In this document: positions 14,865 to 28,313 of the stretch, piece after piece
Position numbering within the stretch: position 1 is the first letter of the stretch
Layout of the letters: each line of letters opens with the position of its first letter
Assembly: GCA_016795365.1 (NCBI GenBank)
Contig: JAEUHN010000004.1
Location: 1 to 64,000, forward strand
Direction: 5' to 3'
Source of the DNA: Verrucomicrobiaceae bacterium
Lineage (GTDB): Bacteria; Verrucomicrobiota; Verrucomicrobiia; Verrucomicrobiales; Verrucomicrobiaceae
DNA: 64,000 bases
Position numbers and translations under genes: made by a program
The notes under the pieces: model-generated
The model's database searches: none
Seen by the model: the letters and a program-made list of their open reading frames with translations, nothing else
What the model was told of the DNA's origin: nothing

Positions 14865-17800
14865 TCAGTTGCTCGCCACACTCTTGTCCACGCGGCGGTT
14901 CAGGAACTGGCGGCTCTGAATAATGGTGAGCACTGCCGCCGAGAATTTGCCCGAGTTATTCTTCAGCGCGGCCTTCATGTCAGCGATGAGCGGCTTGTCG
15001 CTGGGCATCGTCTGACGACCAAGCGCATAGCCGAGCAGTTTGCGACAGACCTGCGTTTTGAACTGGTCGTCCTGCGACTGAAGATAGCGACGCAGGCCAT
15101 TGAGGCCGACGAACTTGGTTCCGTCCTTGAGTTCGGCCGAGTCATCGATCTTCACGCCGTTGTCATCCGCCGACCGGAAGCGACCGATGGGATCGAAGCT
15201 CTCGAGCGCAAAGCCCAGCGGATCGATTCGCTCATGACAGACGGCACAAGCCTGATCCGTGCGATGCTGCAGCAGCATCGCGCGCATGTTCGTCGGCTTC
15301 ACCGCACCCTCGGGGAGCTTTGGCACGTTCGGAGGTGGAGGCGGAGCCGAAATGCCCAGCACCGTCTGGTAGAGATAGTTGCCACGCACCACAGGGCTGG
15401 TGCGATTGGGGCGCGAGGTCTTGGTCAACACCGCTCCCATGCCCAGCAATCCTCCACGCTGCTGACCTGCGACCTTCACCTGTCGAAGGTCTTCGCCAGT
15501 GACACCCGGCACGCCGTAGAACTTGGCCAGACGCTCATTGAGGAAGCTGTAGTCCGCTCCAAGAATGTCGTCCACGCTGCGATCCTCACGCACCAGCTTG
15601 GCAAAGAAGGTGAGCACCTCGCGATGCATGTCGCGGCGCAGTTCGGGCGTGAACCCAGGGAACTTCTTGTCGTCGACTCCACCGTGAGTGTTGAAGGCAC
15701 TGAACTCCAGCCATTGGCCTGCGAACTCCTTCGCCAGGGACTCGGCGCGAGGATCAGCCAGCATCCGCTTCATCTGCGCGGCGAGGACTTCCTTCTTCAT
15801 GATCGATCCATTCTCAGCCACTTCGCGCAGCGCAGTGTCCGGCAGGGAGGACCACAGGAAGTAGCTCAGGCGCGAAGCCAGTTCCCACGGTCCCAATGGC
15901 ACTTCACCAGGGGCCGCAGCTGGATCAACAGGCAAGGTCTCCGCCTTGAACAAGAAGTTCGGCGAGACCAGCACACGCACGATCACCTGCCGTGCGGCCG
16001 ACTCACGATCAAGACCTTCGGCCACCGTGGCATGATAGAGCTTCGAGAGCTTGCCCTTGTCCTCATCGCTCAGAGGGCGACGCCACGCACGACCCGCGAA
16101 CCAATGGAGATGCCCGAGCACCAGCTGGTCCCACTCGGCTTTTTGCTTGGGGTTCAGCTTGTCGCCGGGAGCCGTGTAACCCCAGTCCATCTTCATGCGT
16201 TCCAGCGCCTTCTTGTCCGCCGGGGTCAAGGCATTGCCCAGCTGCTCATCGCTGTAGTAATAGACACCGTTGCTCGGCTTCCAGCGCTGGTAATTCCGCG
16301 CCACCTCTTCCAGACGCCGATCATACTCATCGGGGAAGACCTGCTTCATGCGGCTGAAGTCGCCCATCGTTTCACCGGCTGCCTTGGTGCGCGTCTTCCA
16401 GATCGTGAGCACACCGGGCATGATCTTGGTGACGTCGGGAGGAGCGTCGGTGGTGAGCTTCCACTGAATCGTCGCCACATCCACATCGGGTGTGTTGATG
16501 TCCAGCTTGCAGCTTGCCTTCATGTAGTGCGCGCCTTCCGGCAGAGGCAGCACCACGACCTGCGGCGCTGCGATCGCCAGCACGTCGGGCTTGATTGCCG
16601 TGCCCAGCGGATGCTTGCCGAACTTCGCCAGCACGGCCTCGGACTCGGCAATGCGCTTGTTCAGCTCCTCGATCTTCGCGCCTGGTTTGGTCAACGCTTC
16701 ACGATCCTTTTTCACCTGCTCCTGCATGGCCTGGAAGTAGTTCTTGGGTCCCTTGCCCACGAACACCTGGAGATCAGAAACCAAGGCGATGTCCCCCTTC
16801 GATCCATCGCCGTCATCGCCAATGCAAAGGTTCACCTGCTTGCTGCCCGCCAGCTTCGCCTGCACGCCATAGCTGCGCAGCGCATCAGCGTCCTGCTGCG
16901 AGCGCTGCACGCTGCCATACTGGCCCTTGGCCTTGTAATACCAGCTCTTGCGCTGTGCTTCATTGGCCTTGAGGCTCGCCATCACGGGAGCGGGCACTTC
17001 CTTGGGCTTCGCAGCATCGGGAGGGGGCAGTTGCTGCCAGGGCACGCGCGTAAGGTCGAGGAAACGTGACTTCGGCTCGGCGCTGTTGAGCAGTGCCCAC
17101 CAGTTGTTCAGGAAGGCAGGATTGAGCTTCATCTCTTTGGCCAGCGCTTCCAGCGACTGCGCACCCGTCTTGTCTTTGTGCTTCCACTTCCAGCATGCCA
17201 GCATGTAGTCAGCCTCACGCAGATCATCTTCGTCCTTCGGCAGCAGTGGTGCGGCCTTCTTCTGATACCAGACATAGAGCGACTGCTCGGCCTGCGCCTT
17301 CATCTGCTCGGGACCGCGCAGACCCACGCGATGACTTTGGAACTGGACTCCCGTGCCGGGAAGAATGGTGGCATGCTCGGCAATCTTGCGGGCGGCGGAG
17401 AAGTATTTGTCGAGCTGCTGCGGACTCACGAAGAGCACATCGCCCGTGTTGGCGAAGCCCTCGCCGCCACCGCCATCCGTGGTGAACTCCTTGCCAAAGC
17501 CATAGTCCTGGCCGGTGAGGTCGCGAATGGTGTAATCGTATTCCGCATTCGTCAGCCGCCGCATCGTCACGGGTCCAGGATCACCCGCCTGCTTCATGGC
17601 CAGCGCTTCCAGCTCTCCGTTCACCCAGCCCAAGAGCGTCTCGTGCTCCTGCTCGGTCATCTGGTGTGCCTTGGGCGGAGGCATGTCACCGTTGTCGATG
17701 GTATCTTTGACCTTGATCCACACATCAAACTCCTTGGCCACCTTTGGGTCGGCCGCGAATTGCTTCAGATCGACTTCGCCCTTCGCCTTTTTTTCGTTGT

Positions 17801-17924
17801 GGCACTCGTAGCACTTCGATTGAAGAACCGCTTCGGCGGCCTTCCAGGCAGGAGCGGCAATCAATGACGACGAGCCGAACGCAGCGACGGCGACGGACAG
17901 AGCTGAGAAACGATGGGGAAGCAT
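14865..17924 (-). CDS. DUF1592-type planctomycete cytochrome c protein
   Basis: A 1,019-residue exported protein with the architecture of the DUF1587/DUF1592/DUF1588/DUF1585 family of Planctomycetes and Verrucomicrobia. Signal peptide about residues 1-24 (ends IAA-PAW). A first haem motif CYECH is at 38-42, in a planctomycete-type cytochrome domain. The central region has RRLTNAEYDYTIRDLTG and the conserved RNRTSPVVRGNY-like segment. A second haem motif CAVCH lies near residue 890, followed by ERIDPLGFALESFDPIGRFR. The frame is open further upstream to 18320, but MLPHRFSALS at 17924 begins the signal peptide. Suggested roles in the literature concern surface redox steps or polysaccharide breakdown; neither is shown here. 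Last gene of the sigma-FecR-PPC run. Confidence 0.9.
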   Translation of the reverse strand: MLPHRFSALSVAVAAFGSSSLIAAPAWKAAEAVLQSKCYECHNEKKAKGEVDLKQFAADPKVAKEFDVWIKVKDTIDNGDMPPPKAHQMTEQEHETLLGWVNGELEALAMKQAGDPGPVTMRRLTNAEYDYTIRDLTGQDYGFGKEFTTDGGGGEGFANTGDVLFVSPQQLDKYFSAARKIAEHATILPGTGVQFQSHRVGLRGPEQMKAQAEQSLYVWYQKKAAPLLPKDEDDLREADYMLACWKWKHKDKTGAQSLEALAKEMKLNPAFLNNWWALLNSAEPKSRFLDLTRVPWQQLPPPDAAKPKEVPAPVMASLKANEAQRKSWYYKAKGQYGSVQRSQQDADALRSYGVQAKLAGSKQVNLCIGDDGDGSKGDIALVSDLQVFVGKGPKNYFQAMQEQVKKDREALTKPGAKIEELNKRIAESEAVLAKFGKHPLGTAIKPDVLAIAAPQVVVLPLPEGAHYMKASCKLDINTPDVDVATIQWKLTTDAPPDVTKIMPGVLTIWKTRTKAAGETMGDFSRMKQVFPDEYDRRLEEVARNYQRWKPSNGVYYYSDEQLGNALTPADKKALERMKMDWGYTAPGDKLNPKQKAEWDQLVLGHLHWFAGRAWRRPLSDEDKGKLSKLYHATVAEGLDRESAARQVIVRVLVSPNFLFKAETLPVDPAAAPGEVPLGPWELASRLSYFLWSSLPDTALREVAENGSIMKKEVLAAQMKRMLADPRAESLAKEFAGQWLEFSAFNTHGGVDDKKFPGFTPELRRDMHREVLTFFAKLVREDRSVDDILGADYSFLNERLAKFYGVPGVTGEDLRQVKVAGQQRGGLLGMGAVLTKTSRPNRTSPVVRGNYLYQTVLGISAPPPPPNVPKLPEGAVKPTNMRAMLLQHRTDQACAVCHERIDPLGFALESFDPIGRFRSADDNGVKIDDSAELKDGTKFVGLNGLRRYLQSQDDQFKTQVCRKLLGYALGRQTMPSDKPLIADMKAALKNNSGKFSAAVLTIIQSRQFLNRRVDKSVASN

Positions 17925-18141
17925 TGGGGGGATGGTTTTTTGAAAGCGCGACGCGTGCCATGGCACGCATCGAACTCGGGGGTAAAAGGGATACGAGCGA
18001 ACCGCGAAATCTTGCAGACGGATCACACGAGATTTGCCCCCGCATTGAGCCCCGCTGCGCAAAGATTGGCGTGCGAAGATGTGCTCCGCTTTGGGTTGGG
18101 TGTGGAGAAGTGGAGAGGTTGAGACCGACCTCTCACCCGAC

Positions 18142-20589
18142 CTACTTCGTCTTCGCCAGCTTCTCGCGCAATTGCTCGAGCCTCGTGAGCTGACGGGGAG
18201 GCGGCGGGGCTGGAGGTGGCGCGGCGGCGGCCACTGGAGCGGGTGGCGGCGGAGGAGCTGGAGGCGCATTCTTCGGCGGAGGCGGCGGCGCATCCACACG
18301 CAGGGTGCCACCGAATGCAAAGCGCTGCTTCACGATGCCAGCCGGTGTTGGCACATCCGCCATCACGAAGAGGTTGGGATACTTGTTCACGGGTGTGTCA
18401 GGCCGGGTTGGGATCTTGAAGACCAGATCGGTCACCGCCTTGGTGAACTTCACGGGCGCGACTGGCAGGTAGTCTGGCAGTCCGTAGAGAATCGCCGTCG
18501 CCTCGGCCTCGAACGGCACGCGGTGCTCCAGCTTGCAGAAGTAGTCCGTGCTCTTGCCCTGCTCGACGGCTGTGAGCGCGGGTGTGCCGCTCGCGATCAT
18601 CATCGGGGCCGTGACCAACTCCGTGAATGGAGAGGCATTGAAGGCGATGCCATTGCCTGTGTCCGCCTGCCCGAGCACGGTGAGCTTCCAGTTGCCTGAT
18701 GGTGCATCGCCATTGGCATCCAGCTGGAAGACGCACTCCGTCTGACCTTCGCCGATGGTTTGCTCACCTAGCGAATTGATGCCCGGCGGCTTCCACATCA
18801 GACGCACCAGGATGGGGGCTTTGAAGCCCTCCTTGCGTCTCGCCACGATTCTCAATTCGATCACACCCGCCTGAACCAAGGGCACGGCTGGCTTCACAAT
18901 CTCCAGCGCAAACGGCGCTTCCTCGATCACGGCCACAGGCATCTGGGACTCAATGGTGCGATGCAGCGGCAGGTTGTTGCCCTCCCGCACCAGATCGAAG
19001 ACCTGGCGCAGACGACCCATCGTTGGGTTCGCAGGATCGTTAGGCTTTAAGGTGATCGTGGCCGCACTGCCGCCGAGAGGTGCATCGGGTGCCGCCTCGA
19101 ACAGCGCCATGATGTTCCCCAGTCCACCCGGCATCGATGCATCGACCAACCTCACGCCGGGAGGCAAGCCATCGCAAACAAAGGTGGCATCTCCGCCAGT
19201 GCCGGTGCGCGTGACATTGATCAACTGCGCGAAGCGTCCCCCACGTGGCACGGGAATGAACTGGCGGAGCTGAGTGTCGTTGTTGTCGTAGTTCGGCGAA
19301 GAGAAAACGATCTCAGGACGCGCACCCGTGACCTCGAGTCGATACACAAACGCTGGACCACCGCGCTCAAGCTGATCCACCACTCGGAGAAAGTAGTCGC
19401 CATCGGCAGGAATCGTCGCCCTGAAGCGACTATCGAGACGCGGCGAATCACCCGCGTCATCATTTTCCACAATGCCGCCGCCTTGGGCATTCATGAGGAG
19501 CACCACCGGATCGAGCGGTGATCCGATTGCCTGCGCGTAAGCGACGACTTCGATCTGCTGATCCTTCTTCAGCGAGAGCTTGAAGCAGTCCATGTCACCC
19601 GGCTTCTCGATGATGCCATTGAGCGCCACCGAAGGCGGCAGCGAGCACGGCGTTGCCTTGGAAATGTCGTCGTTGGGCTCCACTTCCAACACGTTGTCAA
19701 ACTCCACCACCCGGAAGGGATTGCCCGAGGGCGCAGGTTGCTGCTTGGGCAGCAGAACAAAGGGCCATGCAGGCAGGGCTGGCAGCACCACATCCTCTTC
19801 GAAACTCTCACCACTGATGCTGAGAAAGCGAGCCTTCACCGTGCTGCCCGCCTTGCCTCCAGCAGGATAGACCACATCGGGCCGACGAAACTCGCCCAGG
19901 TGCAGACGATAAAACGAACTGTCGCTGCCCACATACGAGGACTCGCGCACTTGAATGATGTAATCGCCATCTTCGGGAACCACGATGGAAGCGTGAGGGT
20001 CCTTCGTGTGGAGGACGGTGTCATCGCAGATCGCCAGCTCGAAGCGACGGCTGTCCATGATCGCCACGAAGGGATCGAAGGCGGTGTAGCCCAGTCGCTG
20101 CGCCTCAATCTCGACCGTGAGCCGCTGCCCCTTCTTCATCGGCACTCGATAGTAATCCACGTCTTCATTCGTCACCACACCCTCGATGGTTTGATTCAAT
20201 CCCACAGCCTGCGGTGTGGCGAAGTCACTGTTGGGCTCAACTTCGTTGATCGTCGGATAGGGTCCCACAAACACCTGCCGCAGATGCGAGATGCCCGAGG
20301 CCGTCCGCACTCGCAGCGCATGTGAACCGAGCGGCACTTCCGGTGCGACGGCAATCGTCGCCACCACGGCACCGGCTTCTTTTTTCTCGATGTTCTTCAA
20401 GGTGAATCCCGGCGAGTAAAAGATGAAGCCCTCGAAGTCCGCGAGACGCGCACCCTGCACCGTCACCTTGGTCTCGACGCCGCGCTGAAGACCCTTCGGA
20501 GTGAGCCCGCCGAAGTCTGGGTAGGCAGCTTGAGCACAGCCGAAAGTGAGCGCCATCAAGGCGAGGGTGAGGTGCAAGGTGCGAGTCAT
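18142..20589 (-). CDS. Exported PPC-domain (pre-peptidase C-terminal) protein
   Basis: An 815-residue protein with a Sec signal peptide (residues 1-22, ending AQA-AYPDF) and an N-terminal IPT/TIG-like segment (GLQRGVETKVTVQGARL). Two PPC-like beta-sandwich regions follow, each opening with a VEPND/VEPNS signature: about 112-225 (INEVEPNSDFATPQAVGL) and 300-420 (VLEVEPNDDISKATPCSL). The C-terminus is a low-complexity proline/alanine tract ending RLEQLREKLAKTK. No protease domain is present. Such proteins commonly accompany planctomycete-type cytochromes and are thought to be surface or periplasmic binding modules. It starts 30 bp after the FecR stop and lies 217 bp before the DUF1592 gene, consistent with one operon. 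Confidence 0.85.
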   Translation of the reverse strand: MTRTLHLTLALMALTFGCAQAAYPDFGGLTPKGLQRGVETKVTVQGARLADFEGFIFYSPGFTLKNIEKKEAGAVVATIAVAPEVPLGSHALRVRTASGISHLRQVFVGPYPTINEVEPNSDFATPQAVGLNQTIEGVVTNEDVDYYRVPMKKGQRLTVEIEAQRLGYTAFDPFVAIMDSRRFELAICDDTVLHTKDPHASIVVPEDGDYIIQVRESSYVGSDSSFYRLHLGEFRRPDVVYPAGGKAGSTVKARFLSISGESFEEDVVLPALPAWPFVLLPKQQPAPSGNPFRVVEFDNVLEVEPNDDISKATPCSLPPSVALNGIIEKPGDMDCFKLSLKKDQQIEVVAYAQAIGSPLDPVVLLMNAQGGGIVENDDAGDSPRLDSRFRATIPADGDYFLRVVDQLERGGPAFVYRLEVTGARPEIVFSSPNYDNNDTQLRQFIPVPRGGRFAQLINVTRTGTGGDATFVCDGLPPGVRLVDASMPGGLGNIMALFEAAPDAPLGGSAATITLKPNDPANPTMGRLRQVFDLVREGNNLPLHRTIESQMPVAVIEEAPFALEIVKPAVPLVQAGVIELRIVARRKEGFKAPILVRLMWKPPGINSLGEQTIGEGQTECVFQLDANGDAPSGNWKLTVLGQADTGNGIAFNASPFTELVTAPMMIASGTPALTAVEQGKSTDYFCKLEHRVPFEAEATAILYGLPDYLPVAPVKFTKAVTDLVFKIPTRPDTPVNKYPNLFVMADVPTPAGIVKQRFAFGGTLRVDAPPPPPKNAPPAPPPPPAPVAAAAPPPAPPPPRQLTRLEQLREKLAKTK

Positions 20590-20619
20590 GCGGGTTCAGG
20601 TTTGTTGGGGGAGATGAAG

Positions 20620-22005
20620 TCAGCGAGGCTGGGCGGCGATCCCATACATGGGAGCCGGCTTGCCATCGGGCAGGCGTGATGGAGCCCCCAAGGTCAGGAC
20701 CATCGGCTGATCGACAGTGCGCTTCCACACATCGAAAAGATTGCTCAAGCGGGCCTTGGGCATGCCACCGGTGAGGATCACGGAAGCAATTTGCTCGCCA
20801 GTCTGGGTGAAGCTCTTCGAGAGCCAGGCGGGCGGAGGTGCCGCATGTGCCATAAACAGATAAACCGTGGCCGGACGACGCACGGTCAGCCGCAGCGGCC
20901 AACGTTTCGAAGAGGCTCCTGTGAGCGGTGGCGACTGCACCAAGTCAGCCCCGATCAAGGCACGTGGAAATGGCTTGCCACTTGCCGCGCCCCAGCGCTC
21001 CACACGGTTCATCGCCACGCTCGCCCCATCCTTGAGACCCCCTGGGATGATCCGATGAAAGGCCTCCACACCATCAATGCCCTCGGGTTCCTCGATCGCC
21101 GCGATGCACTGAATGCTCGACGGTTCCGTGGACCAGAACTGCCAGCGCTCGGGCACCGTTAACGAGGCGAGCCGCAGCAATCGCCCAGCGCCATCGACTC
21201 GCACCGCCTGCCCGGCGACCAGCTTGGTGGACTTGGCCGAGCCCTGAGGCGTGACCAACACGGCACCGCTGAACACCGCGACGTCCGTTTGCGCCCCACC
21301 TCGTGAGTTCACACCGAACAAGGTGCCTACATCCACAATGCTGGCCTGCGGTGTGCGAATGGTGAATCCCTTGCCCGCATCACCAGCATCCGCAGCGACG
21401 CGCCCGTGATCAAGACGGAGCAACATCGCGCTCTCCATGGTCATTTGCGCACCGGGAGACGCCATCACACGAACCTGGGAAGGCATCGTGAACAATCGCG
21501 GAGGCTGGTCTGCACCAACCACCACCTCGTCCGCCACAGGCATGTCCTCAGGCTCGGGCATCGCAGGATCGGTTGATCTTTGCGAAGGCGTGGTGGGCTC
21601 TGACTTCGCAACCACGACAGGTCCCTTGTTGGCAGATGGTTTCCACCATTGCCAGCTCACGATACCCAGCAAAACGATGGCAGCAGCCAGCGCGAATGGT
21701 TGCCAGCGGTGACGCCGAGCGTTCGTCGTGCGCTGGTGATGCGCGAGAGCAGCGGAGGTCACGCGTTGCACGAAGGGCTCGTCCTCTGCACACGACAGCC
21801 GAAGCCGCAATGCATCCACGAAGGCACCCTGATCTCTCTGTTCATGCTGGCGCAGCAAATCATCGAGCATCAGATGCCGCCGAATCTCTGCCCGCGCGCA
21901 GGAATCATCCTCGATCGCGCGGACTAGCAGTGCGACATCGGACGATGATGCTTCACCATCGACGTATCGGGCCAGGGCGGCTTCAAACTCCTCGTGCGAC
22001 TTCAT
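20620..22005 (-). CDS. FecR-domain anti-sigma factor-like membrane protein
   Basis: A 461-residue protein. The cytoplasmic N-terminus (MKSHEEFEAALARYVDGEAS) looks like a zinc-less anti-sigma domain. One membrane helix follows (about residues 105-122, ALAAAIVLLGIVSWQWW), then a periplasmic FecR domain (about 170-290: LRLDHGRVAADA, IRTPQASIVDVGTLFGVN, VFSGAVLVTPQG). The family senses envelope signals and controls a partner ECF sigma factor. The start codon overlaps the sigma factor stop (ATGA), so the two are translationally coupled and presumably partners. No TonB receptor is nearby; the downstream genes are a PPC protein and a cytochrome instead. The start at 22005 is preferred over 22050 because of the overlap. 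Confidence 0.9.
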   Translation of the reverse strand: MKSHEEFEAALARYVDGEASSSDVALLVRAIEDDSCARAEIRRHLMLDDLLRQHEQRDQGAFVDALRLRLSCAEDEPFVQRVTSAALAHHQRTTNARRHRWQPFALAAAIVLLGIVSWQWWKPSANKGPVVVAKSEPTTPSQRSTDPAMPEPEDMPVADEVVVGADQPPRLFTMPSQVRVMASPGAQMTMESAMLLRLDHGRVAADAGDAGKGFTIRTPQASIVDVGTLFGVNSRGGAQTDVAVFSGAVLVTPQGSAKSTKLVAGQAVRVDGAGRLLRLASLTVPERWQFWSTEPSSIQCIAAIEEPEGIDGVEAFHRIIPGGLKDGASVAMNRVERWGAASGKPFPRALIGADLVQSPPLTGASSKRWPLRLTVRRPATVYLFMAHAAPPPAWLSKSFTQTGEQIASVILTGGMPKARLSNLFDVWKRTVDQPMVLTLGAPSRLPDGKPAPMYGIAAQPR

Positions 22006-22544
22006 GGTGCGGATGAGGGGTCGGGGTTGGCAAGGCGTTGCTCGATGCACTCGAGCAAGGCACGTCGAAGTCGGAAGAAAGTCTGCCTCACATCATTCGC
22101 CGTGCGCCCGAGACGATCGGCAATGACCACAGGTGATAAATCTTCAAAGTATCGCCAGTGAACCAGCTGACGGCTCCGCTCGGGCATCGCCTCCAAGCAC
22201 AGGTGCAAGGCCCCCATGTGGTCTTCATTCGCCAGCGCTGAGGAAGGTCCGTCGGGCTCATGGACCAACAGTGCCTCGGTCATCGCCTGATTCATGAGTT
22301 CCTCGCGGCGCAATTCCTTGCGCACCAGATTGGCAACCAGTCGTCGCGCGATGCCACGCACCCACGGACCAAACTCCTGCTCACGATCGAAATCCCCGAG
22401 CTTCTCGAAAGCAAGGATGAGGGCCTCCTGTGCCACATCATCCACCGCCTCCGCACGAACGCCGATGGTGCGCACAAACGCGCGAAGCGCAGCCTGCTCG
22501 CGCCGCACCTGCTCGATGAACCATTCTGTGTCGCTGTCTGCCAT
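22002..22544 (-). CDS. ECF-type RNA polymerase sigma factor
   Basis: A 180-residue sigma-70 family protein containing regions 2 and 4 only. Region 2 is seen as VDDVAQEALILAFEKLGDF with FGPWVRGIARRLVANLVRK. Region 4 is LCLEAMPERSRQLVHWRYFE followed by the helix-turn-helix LSPVVIADRLGRTANDVRQT. Size and layout match ECF groups of Planctomycetes and Verrucomicrobia. It heads the minus-strand run sigma-FecR-PPC-DUF1592, and overlaps the FecR gene by 4 nt. Its targets are unknown; the genes just downstream are the obvious candidates. Confidence 0.92.
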   Translation of the reverse strand: MADSDTEWFIEQVRREQAALRAFVRTIGVRAEAVDDVAQEALILAFEKLGDFDREQEFGPWVRGIARRLVANLVRKELRREELMNQAMTEALLVHEPDGPSSALANEDHMGALHLCLEAMPERSRQLVHWRYFEDLSPVVIADRLGRTANDVRQTFFRLRRALLECIEQRLANPDPSSAP

Positions 22545-22614: not shown

Positions 22615-23691
22615 TCATCGTTTCGCCACCTCCTTCGTCGAATTCGCCTCGTGCGGTCGTATCAACTCCAGCACCTTGTCGAGAGCTGCGAACTTCGAGC
22701 CATCGTTGCTCTTGCTGAACTGTTCGGCGAGGCGCTTGATCTCCATCGCGGCGGTGGCGAGTTCTTTGCCGTGACCTGTGGTCAAAGGATTGCTCTCCAC
22801 CAGGGCGAGCGCTTGCGCATACTCGGGGATGCCGAGCTTGGATTGCAGTTCGCGCATCTCTTTGATCAGTCGTTGAACGGTCTGTGCGTGCTGCACGGCG
22901 TAGGTCGGCTTGCCGTTGGGCAGACGCACAAGCTTGCCGGCTTTGTCCACGGGTGCGTCGTTACTACAGCCGACGGCGCACAAGCTATGTGCTAGGTGGA
23001 GCATCTTGCCGGTGAGGAAGATCATGCGTTTGCGTGCGGTGGGGATGGGCTGCGAATCGTGGCCGTTGCTCTTCACGGGCTTGCCTTCGGTGCTCACGAG
23101 GAAGTTGTGCTTCACCTCGCCGCTATACCAGGAGAGCAGCTCGAAGCCGTCGCTGAGCGCCGGGTGGCCCGCCTTGTTCACAAGCTGCTCGTCGTCAATG
23201 ACGTGGCATTCGAAGCATGCCTTCGCGGTGGCAAATGCGGAGGCCGAATGATTCATGCCAAGCGCGCTGGCTTGGCTGATGCGGTCGCTGCGAGTGAGGG
23301 ACTTGCTGTTGTGGATGTCGATCCACTTCTCCGCTCCGCCGTGACAGGATTCGCAACTCACCGCCGCCGTGGTCTGCACCGCGCTGGCGAGCTTCTCCTG
23401 CGTGTAGTGGCAGCGCACGCAGCTCGCGTTCGTAGCGATCTGATCGGGCTTCATGCCGATGAACTTCGCGATCTGATGCGCGGCCTCGGAGTTGGCCAGC
23501 GTGTTGAACGAGGTCGCGTGCTTGGTGCGCTCCCAGGATTCGACGATGGCCTTGTGGCAGTCCCGGCAAGACTCCGCACCAATGGTGTGCGCGGCATCGA
23601 CAGGCACGCGCTGGGCCCGACAAATCGTGGTCGAGAGCGTGATGACCAGAACGCTGACGAGGCGGAGCGGGAGCAAGATTGGCGTGTTCAT
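22615..23691 (-). CDS. Exported tetrahaem c-type cytochrome
   Basis: A 358-residue protein with signal peptide (about residues 1-26) and four CXXCH haem-attachment motifs: CRDCH (42-46), CVRCH (91-95), CESCH (113-117) and CFECH (159-163). The spacing and the HGGAEKWIDIH segment resemble the cytochrome c-554 type of multihaem proteins. The C-terminal half is helical, without further haem motifs. It presumably carries electrons in the periplasm. The frame runs upstream to 23835 but MNTPILLP at 23691 starts the signal peptide. It is divergent from the pentahaem cytochrome (117 bp between starts), which suggests a shared control region. Confidence 0.88.
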   Translation of the reverse strand: MNTPILLPLRLVSVLVITLSTTICRAQRVPVDAAHTIGAESCRDCHKAIVESWERTKHATSFNTLANSEAAHQIAKFIGMKPDQIATNASCVRCHYTQEKLASAVQTTAAVSCESCHGGAEKWIDIHNSKSLTRSDRISQASALGMNHSASAFATAKACFECHVIDDEQLVNKAGHPALSDGFELLSWYSGEVKHNFLVSTEGKPVKSNGHDSQPIPTARKRMIFLTGKMLHLAHSLCAVGCSNDAPVDKAGKLVRLPNGKPTYAVQHAQTVQRLIKEMRELQSKLGIPEYAQALALVESNPLTTGHGKELATAAMEIKRLAEQFSKSNDGSKFAALDKVLELIRPHEANSTKEVAKR

Positions 23692-23727
23692 GATCAAGAT
23701 GAGGGCGGTGTTTATGATTCGGACTTG

Positions 23728-23757
23728 TTGAGCACTTGGGTAACCGTCCTTTATAAT
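23728..23757 (+). promoter_or_regulatory. Candidate sigma-70-type promoter for the pentahaem cytochrome
   Basis: TTGAGC at 23728-23733 and a perfect TATAAT at 23752-23757, with an 18-bp spacer, inside the 117-bp divergent region. The start ATG at 23809 lies about 50 nt downstream, which fits a short leader. Seen by eye only. Confidence 0.55.
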
Positions 23758-23808
23758 TTCCATAACACCAACAGACCAATCTTTGCACCTGTTGCGCCGA
23801 AATTGTCC

Positions 23809-26379
23809 ATGCACGACCTGCCGCCAACATCCCACACGCCAGCGTCCGGCCCCACCGCTTCGAACCGTTGCGCGCAGCGCCTTGGACTACGGAACGCCGA
23901 AGGAGGTTCCGCTTTCGTCGAAGCGGAGGATCACCTGAACGCTGGGGCTCTTCGAGAGGCTTCTCCCTTCGACGAAAGCGGAGCTTCGTGCCTCGCTCCG
24001 CACTCCAAAACGCTGCGCATAACTCAACGAAGCCTGCTCACCTGCATCGTCCTTGTCTTCGGCGCAGCCTTCACTCACGCCGCCGAGCCCGTCCAAGACG
24101 CCGAGTCAGCCCACCGCACCTACCTCCAGGTCCTCCGCTCCGAGAAGCGCTTCCCCACGGCGGCGAGTTGCTCGCAGTGCCACCCGGATCACTACGCCGA
24201 GTGGTCGATGTCGCCGCACGCTTACGCGATGATGGACCCGGTCTTCAACTCGCTGCACACGCTGTTGCTGGAGCGCACCGGCGGCTCGAACGGTGACTTT
24301 TGCATCCGCTGCCACAGCGAGGTCGGTATGCAGCGCGAGGAGAAGATGCTGTCCAGCGCCATGCTGCGCACGCCAATCATGATCGAGGGCATCAGCTGCG
24401 TGGTCTGCCATCGCGTGGACCGCGACTTCGGCAACAGCAGCGGTCGCCTCACCATGACGCACGGCACTGTGACCGCGCCGGTGTATGGACCAACCGGCAA
24501 CAAGAACCTCAAGGCCGCCATCGAAGACAAGAAGTTCGGCCTTGTCACCAAGGACGATGAGATCGGCAAGGCTGTGCACTCAGACGCTTTGAAGTTCCCG
24601 GTGCTGGAGACCTCCGCTGCATGCGCAGCCTGTCACGATGTGAATGTGCCGCATGGGTTCCGCATCGAGTCCACCTTCACCGAGTGGAAGAACTCCCCAG
24701 CCAGCAAGGCCGGCCAGACCTGTCAGGACTGCCACATGAACAAGACGCAGGGAGTGGTGCCCGAGTCTCGCCTCACAGCCGATGGCCGCGATTTGAACTT
24801 CGATTTCGGTCCCGCCGCGAAGGTGCGCAACTCCCCGCGCGACAACCGCGAAGGCATCCCCACGCCAGCGCGCAAACGCACCAACCACATGATGATGGGC
24901 CCCGATTACAGCATCGTGCATCCCGGCTTGTATCCGCATTCGTTGGAGGCGCGCGAGTTCACGTATGGCAATCGCTTCCGCAAGGCGATGTCGGACAACC
25001 AGGAGTTGCTCGGCTTCATGCAGAGCCTCGCGAAGAAGGACGCCACGCAAAAGCCTGCGCACGATGCCGCGCTGAAGAAAGCCGCCAACGAAGCACGCAT
25101 CAACTCGCTCTCGGACTGGATCGCCTTCAAGTGGTGGGAAGGCTGGGGCACGCCTGCCTTCGAAGAGAAACTCTCCGATGCTGAACGCGCCCGCAGGCTC
25201 GAAGGCGTGGGCTTTCCCTGGGCGGACCCCAAAGATCCAGCAGGCTCGAAGCTCCGCCGCGAAGGTGCGCGACTCATCCTCAGCCGTCAGTTCAACCTGC
25301 TGAATCAGAGCTTCGTCGAGCGCACCCGACTGCTGCGCCGTGCGTTGCAGATGAAGGAGTTCAAGATCACGAAGGACGACGACAAAGGCCTGCGCTTCGC
25401 CGTCGATGTCCACAACGTCACCACCGGTCACTCGGTGCCCAGCGGAGCGGATGCGGACCGTCCCATGTTCCTGGAAGTGAAAGTCATCGACGCGCTTGGG
25501 CGTGTGATCTTCAAAAGCGGGGACCGCGATCCCAACGGCGACCTGCGCGATCTCGAATCGACCTTCGTCCATGCCGACGAGCCGAAGTCAGGCGCATGGC
25601 TCGACGCCAGCGCCTGGAAAACGCAAGCCGGTCTGCCTTTGCGCAAAGACGATCAGCGCTGGGTGCTTGATCCTTACCTCTTCAATCTGCAATCGAAGTT
25701 CATCACGCCGAACCTTGTCGGTGGCGAACGCGAGCAGGCACTGCCGGTGAACGTTTCCTTTGATCCCCTGCCGTTCATTCGTCCCTCTGCCAAGGCCGAA
25801 TCGCACACCGCGCGCGCGGCCTCCGTGCGCAAGCAAAGCCGCACGCTGCCACCGCTTGGCCATCGCTGGGCCGAATACAAAGTGGAGCGCGATCAACTCA
25901 CCGGCGCACGGCCTTATCGCATCGAGCTGAAGCTCATCTCGCAGTCCGTGCCGATCCACTTCGTCAAGGCGATGTCCGCCGTCGGCTTCGACTACAACCT
26001 CTCGCCCAAGGAAGTGGCCAAGCGCATTGTTGAAGGCCCCGTGGTGAACGCCGATGGCACCAAACGTCGCGGTGGAGCCACGGTGATCTGGAGCAAGACG
26101 GTGCCCGTGGTGGAAGCGAACTACCACGCAGACCTCACGCCCACACCTGACGAACTGATGAAGGTGCCGGTGAGCGAGTATCCGTATCCGCACACCAGCG
26201 AAGCAGAGTTGAAAGCCCGCGAGGCCGCGCTCGCTGGCACCAGTGAGGCGAGTGACTTGTTGTTGAAGAGCCTCGGCTTGTTGAACCCCGATGCCTGGCC
26301 CGGCGGTGTGCCGGAAGGCCTGCCCTTCCTGCCTGAGGAAGCCACCAAGGAAACCAATGCGAAGGAGGAGAAGCCATGA
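23809..26379 (+). CDS. Large pentahaem c-type cytochrome
   Basis: An 856-residue protein with five CXXCH motifs: CSQCH, CIRCH, CVVCH, CAACH and CQDCH (coding about 24169 to 24735). A long C-terminal half of strand-rich sequence follows (for example FAVDVHNVTTGHSVPSGADA), typical of cytochrome c-554-like surface proteins. A Sec-type hydrophobic stretch (LLTCIVLVFGAAFTHA-AEP) begins only at about residue 77. Between the ATG at 23809 and this stretch lies an in-frame palindromic element of about 147 bp. There is no closer ATG, GTG or TTG in frame; the frame is also open further upstream, but a good promoter at 23728-23757 supports 23809. Its stop overlaps ATG 26376 of the beta-barrel frame (ATGA). 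Probable role: electron transfer at or beyond the outer membrane. Confidence 0.85.
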   Translation: MHDLPPTSHTPASGPTASNRCAQRLGLRNAEGGSAFVEAEDHLNAGALREASPFDESGASCLAPHSKTLRITQRSLLTCIVLVFGAAFTHAAEPVQDAESAHRTYLQVLRSEKRFPTAASCSQCHPDHYAEWSMSPHAYAMMDPVFNSLHTLLLERTGGSNGDFCIRCHSEVGMQREEKMLSSAMLRTPIMIEGISCVVCHRVDRDFGNSSGRLTMTHGTVTAPVYGPTGNKNLKAAIEDKKFGLVTKDDEIGKAVHSDALKFPVLETSAACAACHDVNVPHGFRIESTFTEWKNSPASKAGQTCQDCHMNKTQGVVPESRLTADGRDLNFDFGPAAKVRNSPRDNREGIPTPARKRTNHMMMGPDYSIVHPGLYPHSLEAREFTYGNRFRKAMSDNQELLGFMQSLAKKDATQKPAHDAALKKAANEARINSLSDWIAFKWWEGWGTPAFEEKLSDAERARRLEGVGFPWADPKDPAGSKLRREGARLILSRQFNLLNQSFVERTRLLRRALQMKEFKITKDDDKGLRFAVDVHNVTTGHSVPSGADADRPMFLEVKVIDALGRVIFKSGDRDPNGDLRDLESTFVHADEPKSGAWLDASAWKTQAGLPLRKDDQRWVLDPYLFNLQSKFITPNLVGGEREQALPVNVSFDPLPFIRPSAKAESHTARAASVRKQSRTLPPLGHRWAEYKVERDQLTGARPYRIELKLISQSVPIHFVKAMSAVGFDYNLSPKEVAKRIVEGPVVNADGTKRRGGATVIWSKTVPVVEANYHADLTPTPDELMKVPVSEYPYPHTSEAELKAREAALAGTSEASDLLLKSLGLLNPDAWPGGVPEGLPFLPEEATKETNAKEEKP
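23872..24018. repeat. Palindromic repeat element inserted in frame, copy A
   Basis: Two inverted arms of about 51 bp (23872-23922 and 23967-24018) flank a short centre. The inner 15 bp, CCGCTTTCGTCGAAG against CTTCGACGAAAGCGG, pair perfectly; the outer parts (GCGCAGCGCCTTGGA against the complement of TCCAAAACGCTGCGC) pair with a few mismatches. By my boundaries the length is 147 bp, exactly 49 codons, with no stop in the cytochrome frame. It lies just before the signal-peptide hydrophobic core and shares its GCGCAG...CTTGGACT start with the element at 26421. Confidence 0.75.
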
Positions 26380-26420
26380 GTGCCCATGATCACCTGCTCC
26401 CCCCATGCCTTACGAAGGGA

Positions 26421-26630
26421 GTGGCGCAGCCACCTTGGACTGCGTGCAGCCTGCTGCCGCTTTTCGAAGGCAGCCCAGCTGCCGTGAACGTCTCCACGCC
26501 CTGCATCGCCGAATCGCTGTCGCGCGTGCGCAGCCTTGGCGCTTCGAACAACGTCCGTCGGCCTTCACGCCAGCATGGCTGGCTAGGAAAGGCGGCAGCA
26601 GGCTGCCGCAGTCCAAGGTGGCGTGGCCAC
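26421..26630. repeat. Palindromic repeat element inserted in frame, copy B
   Basis: Inverted arms of about 40 bp (26421-26460 and about 26592-26630) pair over CCACCTTGGACTGCG and GCAGCCTGCTGCCGC, with a central region of about 130 bp. The length is about 210 bp, 70 codons, open in the frame that runs from ATG 26376 into the lipoprotein. The terminal sequence GCGCAG...CCTTGGACTGCG is related to copy A, and both enter the reading frame at the same phase (GCG CAG). Confidence 0.78.
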
Positions 26631-26654
26631 GAAATTGCAGCCCGCATCGTGCGA

Positions 26655-28313
26655 ATGGCCTCGCTCGTCTTCGTTGTCACCTTGTCCTCCTGCTCCCTCC
26701 CCGAAGAATACCTCGCCGGAGGCCCAGACGCGCACATCAAACGCGCCGAGATCCCCGTCGCTGCCGAACCATCGCCAGCGGCCATCAGTGATCGCGATTC
26801 CATCAACGCAACCGCTCAACAACCCGCGCCGTCGCAGCCATCTGAAATCTCAGATCTCAAATCTCAGATCCCTGCCATCAAACCCGCCTACGTCTCCGAC
26901 GCCGGTGCGCTGGAGATGAGCGATGAAGTCATCCCCTTTGACAAGTTCGCGCGCGGTCGTGAGGAGCAATACCGCACCGTCACCGAGCGGATCGACGACG
27001 CAGTGTTCGCGCAGAATCGCGAGCGACGGAAGCTCATCGAGCAGCGTGCGCTCGATGACTCCGACACCGACTTGCCGGATCGTCGCAGCTTCTTCGGCGG
27101 CGATCGTTTCCTCAGTCCTGGCCCTGTCGATCCCGGCTACAAGCTGCCCACCGGCGCGACGTGGCGTCCGATGTTCTTCGCCTTCGGCACGCTGCGCAGC
27201 GCGGTGCAAACCTTCCACCAGGGACCGAAGGACATCACCGAATGGGCGAATCGTCTCGATCTCTTCGGCAACCTCACCCTCAGCGGCACCGAGCGCGTGC
27301 TCGTCGGCTTGCGACCATTCGATCACGATGGCCTGTTCTCCGGCTACACCTTTGGTCGAGGTTCCAAGAAGAAAGGCGAATGGAACGACGCGCTCAATCT
27401 CGATCCGCAGACACTCTTCTTCGAAGGCGACTTCGGCGAGATCTTTCCCTGCCTCGATCCGCACGACAAACGCCACCTCGACTACCAGTTCAGCATCGGA
27501 CGCCAGCCTTTGCTTTTGCAGGACGGCATGATGGCGAACGACACCATCGACGGCATCGGCATCACGCGGCATAACATCTACATGCTCGGCGCTTCGAACA
27601 CACGCGTCACCGGCTGGTTTGGCCTGAATGAAGTCAATCGCGGCAACATGAGCGAAGACGATGCCGCGCGACTCTTCGCACTCTCCACCACCTTCGACTA
27701 CGCCGGCCGCACCATCGAAGCCGATGCCGCTTACGTCAGTGGCGACGCAGGCGATGGCACTTACGTCGGCCTCGGCCACATCACCCGTTTCGGTCACTGG
27801 GGCTCCAGCTTGCGCGCGAATGCCTCCTGGGCGCAAGACAACGACACACCCGCTGTCGGCACCGGCTATCTCTTCACGCATGAACTCTCGCGCACCATGC
27901 CCGGCAACAGCGACATCGTGTATCTCAACACCTACCTCGGCATCGACAACTACACCTCCGCCGCACGCGGCCCTGCGACAGGTGGCCCGCTCGGACGTCT
28001 CGGCCTGATGAACCGCGCCGTGGGCCTCGGCAGCTACGGCGCGCCGCTGAGCAACAAGTCCGGCGACGTCGTCGGAGCCTCGCTCGGCTACCAGCACTTC
28101 TTCGACGCTCTCGCGTATAAACAACTCCTCGTCGAACTCGGCGGCCGCACGCCTTACGGCAGCAACACCGAGAAAAGCATCGGTGCCATCGGAGCCCAGT
28201 ATCAATGGGGCTTCGGTCGCGGCCTCGCTTTCATCCTCGGCGGCTTCGGCACGTTGGATGAAGACGGCGAGACGGGCTACGGCGCACGCTCGGAGTTGCT
28301 CGTGAAGTTCTGA
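26655..28313 (+). CDS. Outer-membrane beta-barrel lipoprotein (porin-like)
   Basis: From ATG 26655 the 552-residue product has a lipoprotein signal (MASLVFVVTLSSCS, lipobox cysteine at residue 13). A Pro/Ala linker follows (to about residue 75), then a beta-rich region with many aromatic-ended strands and a C-terminal phenylalanine (ELLVKF), as in outer-membrane barrels; alginate-export-type porins look similar. The same frame is open back to ATG 26376, which overlaps the cytochrome stop (ATGA), but that start would put 93 residues, mostly palindromic element B, ahead of the lipobox. Either the element split an originally coupled start or 26655 is the true start. Downstream of a pentahaem cytochrome, it is the likely porin of an electron conduit. 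Confidence 0.78.
   Translation: MASLVFVVTLSSCSLPEEYLAGGPDAHIKRAEIPVAAEPSPAAISDRDSINATAQQPAPSQPSEISDLKSQIPAIKPAYVSDAGALEMSDEVIPFDKFARGREEQYRTVTERIDDAVFAQNRERRKLIEQRALDDSDTDLPDRRSFFGGDRFLSPGPVDPGYKLPTGATWRPMFFAFGTLRSAVQTFHQGPKDITEWANRLDLFGNLTLSGTERVLVGLRPFDHDGLFSGYTFGRGSKKKGEWNDALNLDPQTLFFEGDFGEIFPCLDPHDKRHLDYQFSIGRQPLLLQDGMMANDTIDGIGITRHNIYMLGASNTRVTGWFGLNEVNRGNMSEDDAARLFALSTTFDYAGRTIEADAAYVSGDAGDGTYVGLGHITRFGHWGSSLRANASWAQDNDTPAVGTGYLFTHELSRTMPGNSDIVYLNTYLGIDNYTSAARGPATGGPLGRLGLMNRAVGLGSYGAPLSNKSGDVVGASLGYQHFFDALAYKQLLVELGGRTPYGSNTEKSIGAIGAQYQWGFGRGLAFILGGFGTLDEDGETGYGARSELLVKF

Follow-up and report, generated by a model that had tools for sequence, protein, structure and literature searches.

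Genes for two multihaem cytochromes and an outer-membrane beta-barrel lie together at 22615-28313 of the window (the 64,000-nucleotide stretch of a Verrucomicrobiaceae contig that was analysed here), and the question that this arrangement raises is what kind of unit the three proteins form and whether they could carry electrons across the outer membrane. The tetrahaem c-type cytochrome (22615-23691, minus strand) is c554-like, with four CxxCH motifs, a signal peptide and a match to Pfam Cytochrome_C554 (E 2.4e-15). Divergently from it runs the gene for the pentahaem c-type cytochrome (23809-26379, plus strand; Cytochrome_C554, E 4.1e-8), whose start is uncertain and whose predicted mature protein begins at about 24082, with CxxCH sites at 24169, 24301, 24397, 24622 and 24721. 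The pentahaem stop overlaps the frame of the barrel gene (26376-28313, plus strand; alternative start at 26655) in an ATGA at 26376-26379, and the same overlap recurs in loci L084 and L096. The opposite strands, the four and five haem motifs, the predicted export of the cytochromes and the overlap agree with what a preliminary description had reported. A sigma-70-like promoter, TTGAGC-18-TATAAT, lies in the divergent intergenic region (23728-23757, plus strand); a motif scan found one such match in this region against 0.1 expected in shuffles, and its TATAAT block is retained in the related locus L083, which is 93% identical. On either side of the trio are unrelated genes, one for a sigma factor and one of DUF1501 type that runs convergently (both named by eye). 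Window positions 14865-22544, also read by eye, hold a large ORF for a DUF1592/PSCyt-type cytochrome (CYECH) and genes for a sigma factor, a FecR-like protein and an exported protein; such a set is typical of Verrucomicrobia/Planctomycetes and has no relation to the three genes.

A scan of 84,980 species for the pentahaem protein returned more than 500 relatives, and the best 80 loci, which were analysed, come from Verrucomicrobiota, Acidobacteriota, Planctomycetota, Nitrospirota, Pseudomonadota, Rhodothermota, Bacteroidota, Myxococcota, Gemmatimonadota and SAR324. Enough downstream sequence was available in 76 of these 80 (at least eight phyla), and the barrel gene lies no more than 1 kb from the pentahaem gene in 75 of them, including L160 with a distance of about 960 bp. 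In the 76th, L121, a single open frame encodes both pentahaem and barrel, and no signal peptide separates them. This natural fusion (9698-13294 of L121, plus strand), known from this one acidobacterial MAG, has a Cyc2-like topology; L178 was considered as a second fusion and rejected because its linker has frameshifts and contains a signal peptide. Among 236 genomes sampled from the class, the barrel occurs in five (the window genome and four others, each of a different family), which are the same five that give a strong pentahaem match, and in each of them the pentahaem gene directly precedes that of the barrel. Among 388 genomes of the phylum the barrel occurs in seven, each time beside a pentahaem gene. 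The distance matrices of the two proteins co-vary (Mantel r 0.78, 74 loci). The pair, and likewise the trio, is conserved across phyla, more than chance would produce, and the earlier proposal that barrel and multihaem cytochromes belong together is well founded in this respect. Strict pairing, co-variation and the L121 fusion suggest that the two proteins form a 1:1 complex in which the cytochrome lies on the periplasmic face. A search of plasmids for pentahaem relatives gave only weak haem-motif matches, which were discarded.

Many relatives carry the pair within a seven-gene cluster encoding the pentahaem cytochrome, the barrel, a FAD/NAD/2Fe-2S reductase, the tetrahaem cytochrome, a cNMP-binding and 4Fe-4S protein, a five-helix membrane protein and a decahaem cytochrome, the last being present in most full-cluster relatives. 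The flavin reductase gene precedes the tetrahaem gene in full clusters and has a Ferric_reduct domain in G127; the Fe-S protein has a Fer4_11 domain; and the inner-membrane (haem-b-type) protein has at least two HX13H motifs in 43 of 44 relatives and SGXXG in 38 of 44. Compared by gene content and described motifs, this cluster matches PCC4, a hypothetical porin-cytochrome cluster proposed in 2017 from the genomes of iron oxidisers, which consists of a porin, 4-, 5- and 10-haem cytochromes, an Fe-S protein with PF13247, and an inner-membrane protein with five helices, SGXXG and two WX3HX13H motifs (PMC5566968). He et al. read PCC4 as an electron conduit, and the main text of their paper does not mention Verrucomicrobia (PMC5566968). 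No experiments on PCC4 were found in the literature searched, in which one 2026 paper mentions it once.

The cluster varies in composition. A longer, 8-haem version replaces the tetrahaem gene in L100, L107, L108, L115-L119, L126, L136 and others (Acidobacteriota and some other loci). A flavoprotein gene (NAD(P)/FAD fold, by eye) follows acidobacterial clusters that lack the FAD/2Fe-2S reductase (L126:19514-21698 and L100:20588-21692), with an FHA-domain-like gene before it in L126. In other Verrucomicrobiota (L075-L077 and L082) the genes for the reductase, the cNMP/Fe-S protein and the decahaem cytochrome are also grouped, with neither pentahaem nor barrel, and the inner-membrane module therefore exists independently.

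With PCC4 the window has in common the porin and the 5-haem and 4-haem cytochromes, whereas the 10-haem cytochrome, the inner-membrane protein, the Fe-S protein and the flavin reductase are missing from the trio. In the pentahaem tree the window falls within a verrucomicrobial clade of nine rows (support 100), and all members with judgeable flanks have the divergent tetrahaem and pentahaem genes, plus the barrel where the contig reaches, with the other four genes absent nearby. Within these flanks, the trio is conserved together. L091, outside the tree, has the same trio-only layout. As the sister group (L089, L090, L093 and L095) has the full gene set, loss in the window clade is the simpler reading. 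The MAG NAT23 has a trio-only copy (L085) and a full seven-gene copy (L090) at separate places. We found no decahaem homologue in the window or its genome assembly, no five-helix membrane protein (SGXXG, WX3HX13H) adjoining the trio in the window or in the flanking sequence of other clade members, and no NapC/NirT quinol dehydrogenase (PF03264) in the window genome. Two hits on C15, one partial and of ferredoxin type, the other a weak one for the reductase, were rejected as PCC4 partners, the region being of nitrate/sulfite-assimilation type; the window genome has no convincing candidate for full-length Fe-S and reductase partners. Since the assembly is 97.2% complete, the absence of partner genes is probable rather than proven. 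Judged from sequence, the window trio is a reduced, PCC4-derived module that shares ancestry with the full cluster, not a full PCC4, and it marks the minimal conserved core. It is a variant of an already proposed system.

Both cytochromes fit a role as all-bis-His electron carriers, not enzymes. The five CxxCH motifs of the pentahaem protein and five further histidines (11, 46, 166, 269 and 450 of the mature protein) are invariant in 69 of 69 sequences, as are the four CxxCH motifs and His58, 127, 176 and 195 of the tetrahaem protein across 65; it is because each haem has an invariant spare histidine that the proteins look like carriers. The predicted pentahaem model (pLDDT 82) is of a broad globular protein of roughly 80 kDa and, being a haem-free single chain like the other models here, cannot show docking of cytochrome and barrel. 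Its only fold match is the penta-haem cytochrome c552 of Thermochromatium tepidum (5ze8, E 5.4e-9), which is also the best PDB sequence match (E 4.3e-9). This closest solved structure by sequence and fold has, however, only 13% identity and 385 residues compared to 765, much of the window protein being missing in c552.

The barrel protein has no match in Pfam, NCBIfam or PDB sequences. It is predicted with confidence as a beta-barrel (mean pLDDT 85, mostly above 90 in the barrel part) of about 18 strands, with 17 long and 2 short ones in the model. The closest folds according to Foldseek and VIA-align are Campylobacter MOMP, the OprD/Occ family, AlgE and chitoporin, with VIA-align Z values of 25-28 to MOMP, Occ/OprD and AlgE. 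Most of these barrels are 18-stranded, and that of MtrB has 26 strands. MtrB is not among the top structural matches in either comparison, which by itself excludes nothing, as a 26-strand barrel left unranked by Foldseek cannot appear in the VIA-align comparison. The model suggests that the barrel is of the ~18-stranded OprD/MOMP class, probably too narrow to sheath a cytochrome as MtrB does, and this size class argues against sheathing of a protein as large as the pentahaem cytochrome. Lumen-facing positions are more conserved than lipid-facing ones (entropy 1.23 versus 2.08, p 1.5e-5), although this comparison is biased, since parity was assigned according to polarity and since residues facing the lipid are free to exchange among aliphatics. 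An ordered loop of about 40 residues (model 420-459) has an entropy of 1.35, compared with 1.86 in other loops. The protein had been described as an outer-membrane beta-barrel lipoprotein, of which the barrel stands but the lipoprotein does not as a general trait: this protein and its counterpart in L083 have similar lipoboxes (here LSSC, with Cys at 26691), but a crude scan of barrel relatives found one in only 1 of 73, so that the lipobox is at best lineage-specific.

Our preferred reading, to which we give a probability of roughly 0.5, is that the trio is a reduced PCC4-type module made up of an ~18-strand channel, a docked all-bis-His pentahaem cytochrome and a tetrahaem relay. The OprD/MOMP-like channel would be partnered one-to-one by the pentahaem cytochrome on the periplasmic side, which probably docks at the barrel as a cap rather than threading the lumen. 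A small soluble redox substrate (a metal ion, a chelate or a quinone-like shuttle) may enter or bind the conserved lumen and would there exchange electrons with the pentahaem cytochrome, while the tetrahaem cytochrome would relay electrons between the latter and the periplasmic electron-transfer pool. General periplasmic carriers might stand in for the lost inner-membrane partners. Such a scheme would cover either direction, uptake or discharge.

The main rival is a true extracellular conduit, in which the pentahaem cytochrome is inserted in the barrel and electrons hop from haem to surface on the MtrAB/PioAB principle, as hypothesised for the full PCC4 cluster (PMC5566968). Such a conduit would be consistent with the 1:1 complex implied by strict pairing and the L121 fusion, with the conserved barrel lumen and with cytochromes that look like pure electron carriers. 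However, the cluster includes no extracellular cytochrome, the pentahaem protein is broad and globular with a fold related to T. tepidum c552, and the predicted barrel groups with 18-stranded porins that have occluding loops and are far narrower than the 26-stranded MtrB; we regard the conduit as possible, if doubtful. Of the MtrCAB-type principle that the preliminary description had invoked, the conserved barrel-cytochrome unit is retained, but the place of the predicted barrel among ~18-stranded specific porins speaks against a cytochrome sheathed as in MtrAB. MtrCAB, PioAB and MtoAB have the general idea of a barrel plus a periplasmic multihaem cytochrome in common with the window, but theirs is a decahaem cytochrome with a barrel of 24-32 TM, whereas the window pentahaem has five haems. 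No MtrA-like decahaem cytochrome was found in the trio, the pentahaem protein scoring below cut-offs, and the window cytochromes have only sub-threshold haem-motif similarity to the DmsE and MtrC models; at the family level the proteins are indeed unrelated to MtrA and MtrB.

Alternatively, the trio might work as a redox enzyme of the periplasm that has a porin dedicated to its substrate; the barrel would import a specific solute, and the cytochromes would catalytically reduce or oxidise it. This would agree with the closest barrel folds, which are substrate-specific porins (OprD/Occ, MOMP and chitoporin), and with the relationship of the pentahaem fold to c552 5ze8, but five CxxCH motifs with five spare invariant histidines leave no obvious open catalytic haem, making an enzyme unlikely.

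The trio had also been thought to be a version of the porin-multihaem cytochrome system of freshwater Verrucomicrobia, which turns out to be the wrong relative. The 63-sequence barrel profile found no homologue of the window barrel in G093, which we take to be Opitutus terrae PB90-1. That strain is listed as a holder of the freshwater system, which has octahaem cytochromes and porins with at least 20 TM motifs (PMC5615132). The two systems are alike in phylum and in having a porin beside a multihaem cytochrome, but the window has five- and four-haem cytochromes and about 18 strands; haem number, porin size and the lack of a barrel homologue in G093 led us to reject their identity, and the trio goes with PCC4 (PMC5566968) instead. 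ExtHIJKL of Geobacter sulfurreducens resembles the window in the combination, in ExtKL, of an outer-membrane barrel and a periplasmic pentahaem cytochrome. However, ExtI is described with 21 TM segments, and neither a rhodanese lipoprotein nor selenocysteine is present here. Membership of the pentahaem-barrel pair in ExtKL was rejected, since the pentahaem protein scores a weak 51.7 bits against NF040886, compared to a family cut-off of 250 bits.

Tentatively, PCC4 and its reduced descendant might represent a distinct class of porin-cytochrome system, in which a docked pentahaem cytochrome caps a narrow OprD-like channel (the two being covalently fused in one acidobacterium, with a Cyc2-like topology) and the whole acts as a gated redox port; in Verrucomicrobiales it would do so with no inner-membrane module of its own. 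Because the barrel is predicted to be narrow, the choice between a threaded conduit and a docked redox port can be tested directly. The PCC4-type pair is more widespread than published, being found in Verrucomicrobiota, Acidobacteriota, Nitrospirota, Gemmatimonadota, Rhodothermota, Myxococcota and others, and its carriers include cultured organisms (Nisaea, Roseibium aggregatum, Tistlia and Sulfidibacter) where a knock-out is possible.

Both plus-strand genes carry a palindromic element in frame near the 5' end. The first (23857-24033) is a dispersed element that follows the ATG of the pentahaem gene and precedes the part encoding its signal peptide, so that about 60 leader codons are repeat-derived; the second (26421-26630, about 210 bp) lies inside the barrel ORF near its 5' end and accounts for most of the first ~90 codons. 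Related copies are found at other places in this genome and in further members of the order. L083 is without the first element and has a different palindrome at the second site. Because they are repeat-derived and differ in L083, the leader codons of both genes are not ancestral coding sequence, and the true starts of the barrel and pentahaem genes are therefore uncertain. That the trio has decayed into a leftover of the full PCC4 cluster without function, as the lost inner-membrane partners and the elements inserted in both leaders might suggest, is highly improbable in view of the open frames and intact haem ligands in a clade of about ten genomes, the 93-96% conservation to L083 and the sigma-70-like promoter. 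In lying in frame, downstream of the start codon and ahead of the signal peptide in both genes, the elements are reminiscent of Rickettsia palindromic elements.
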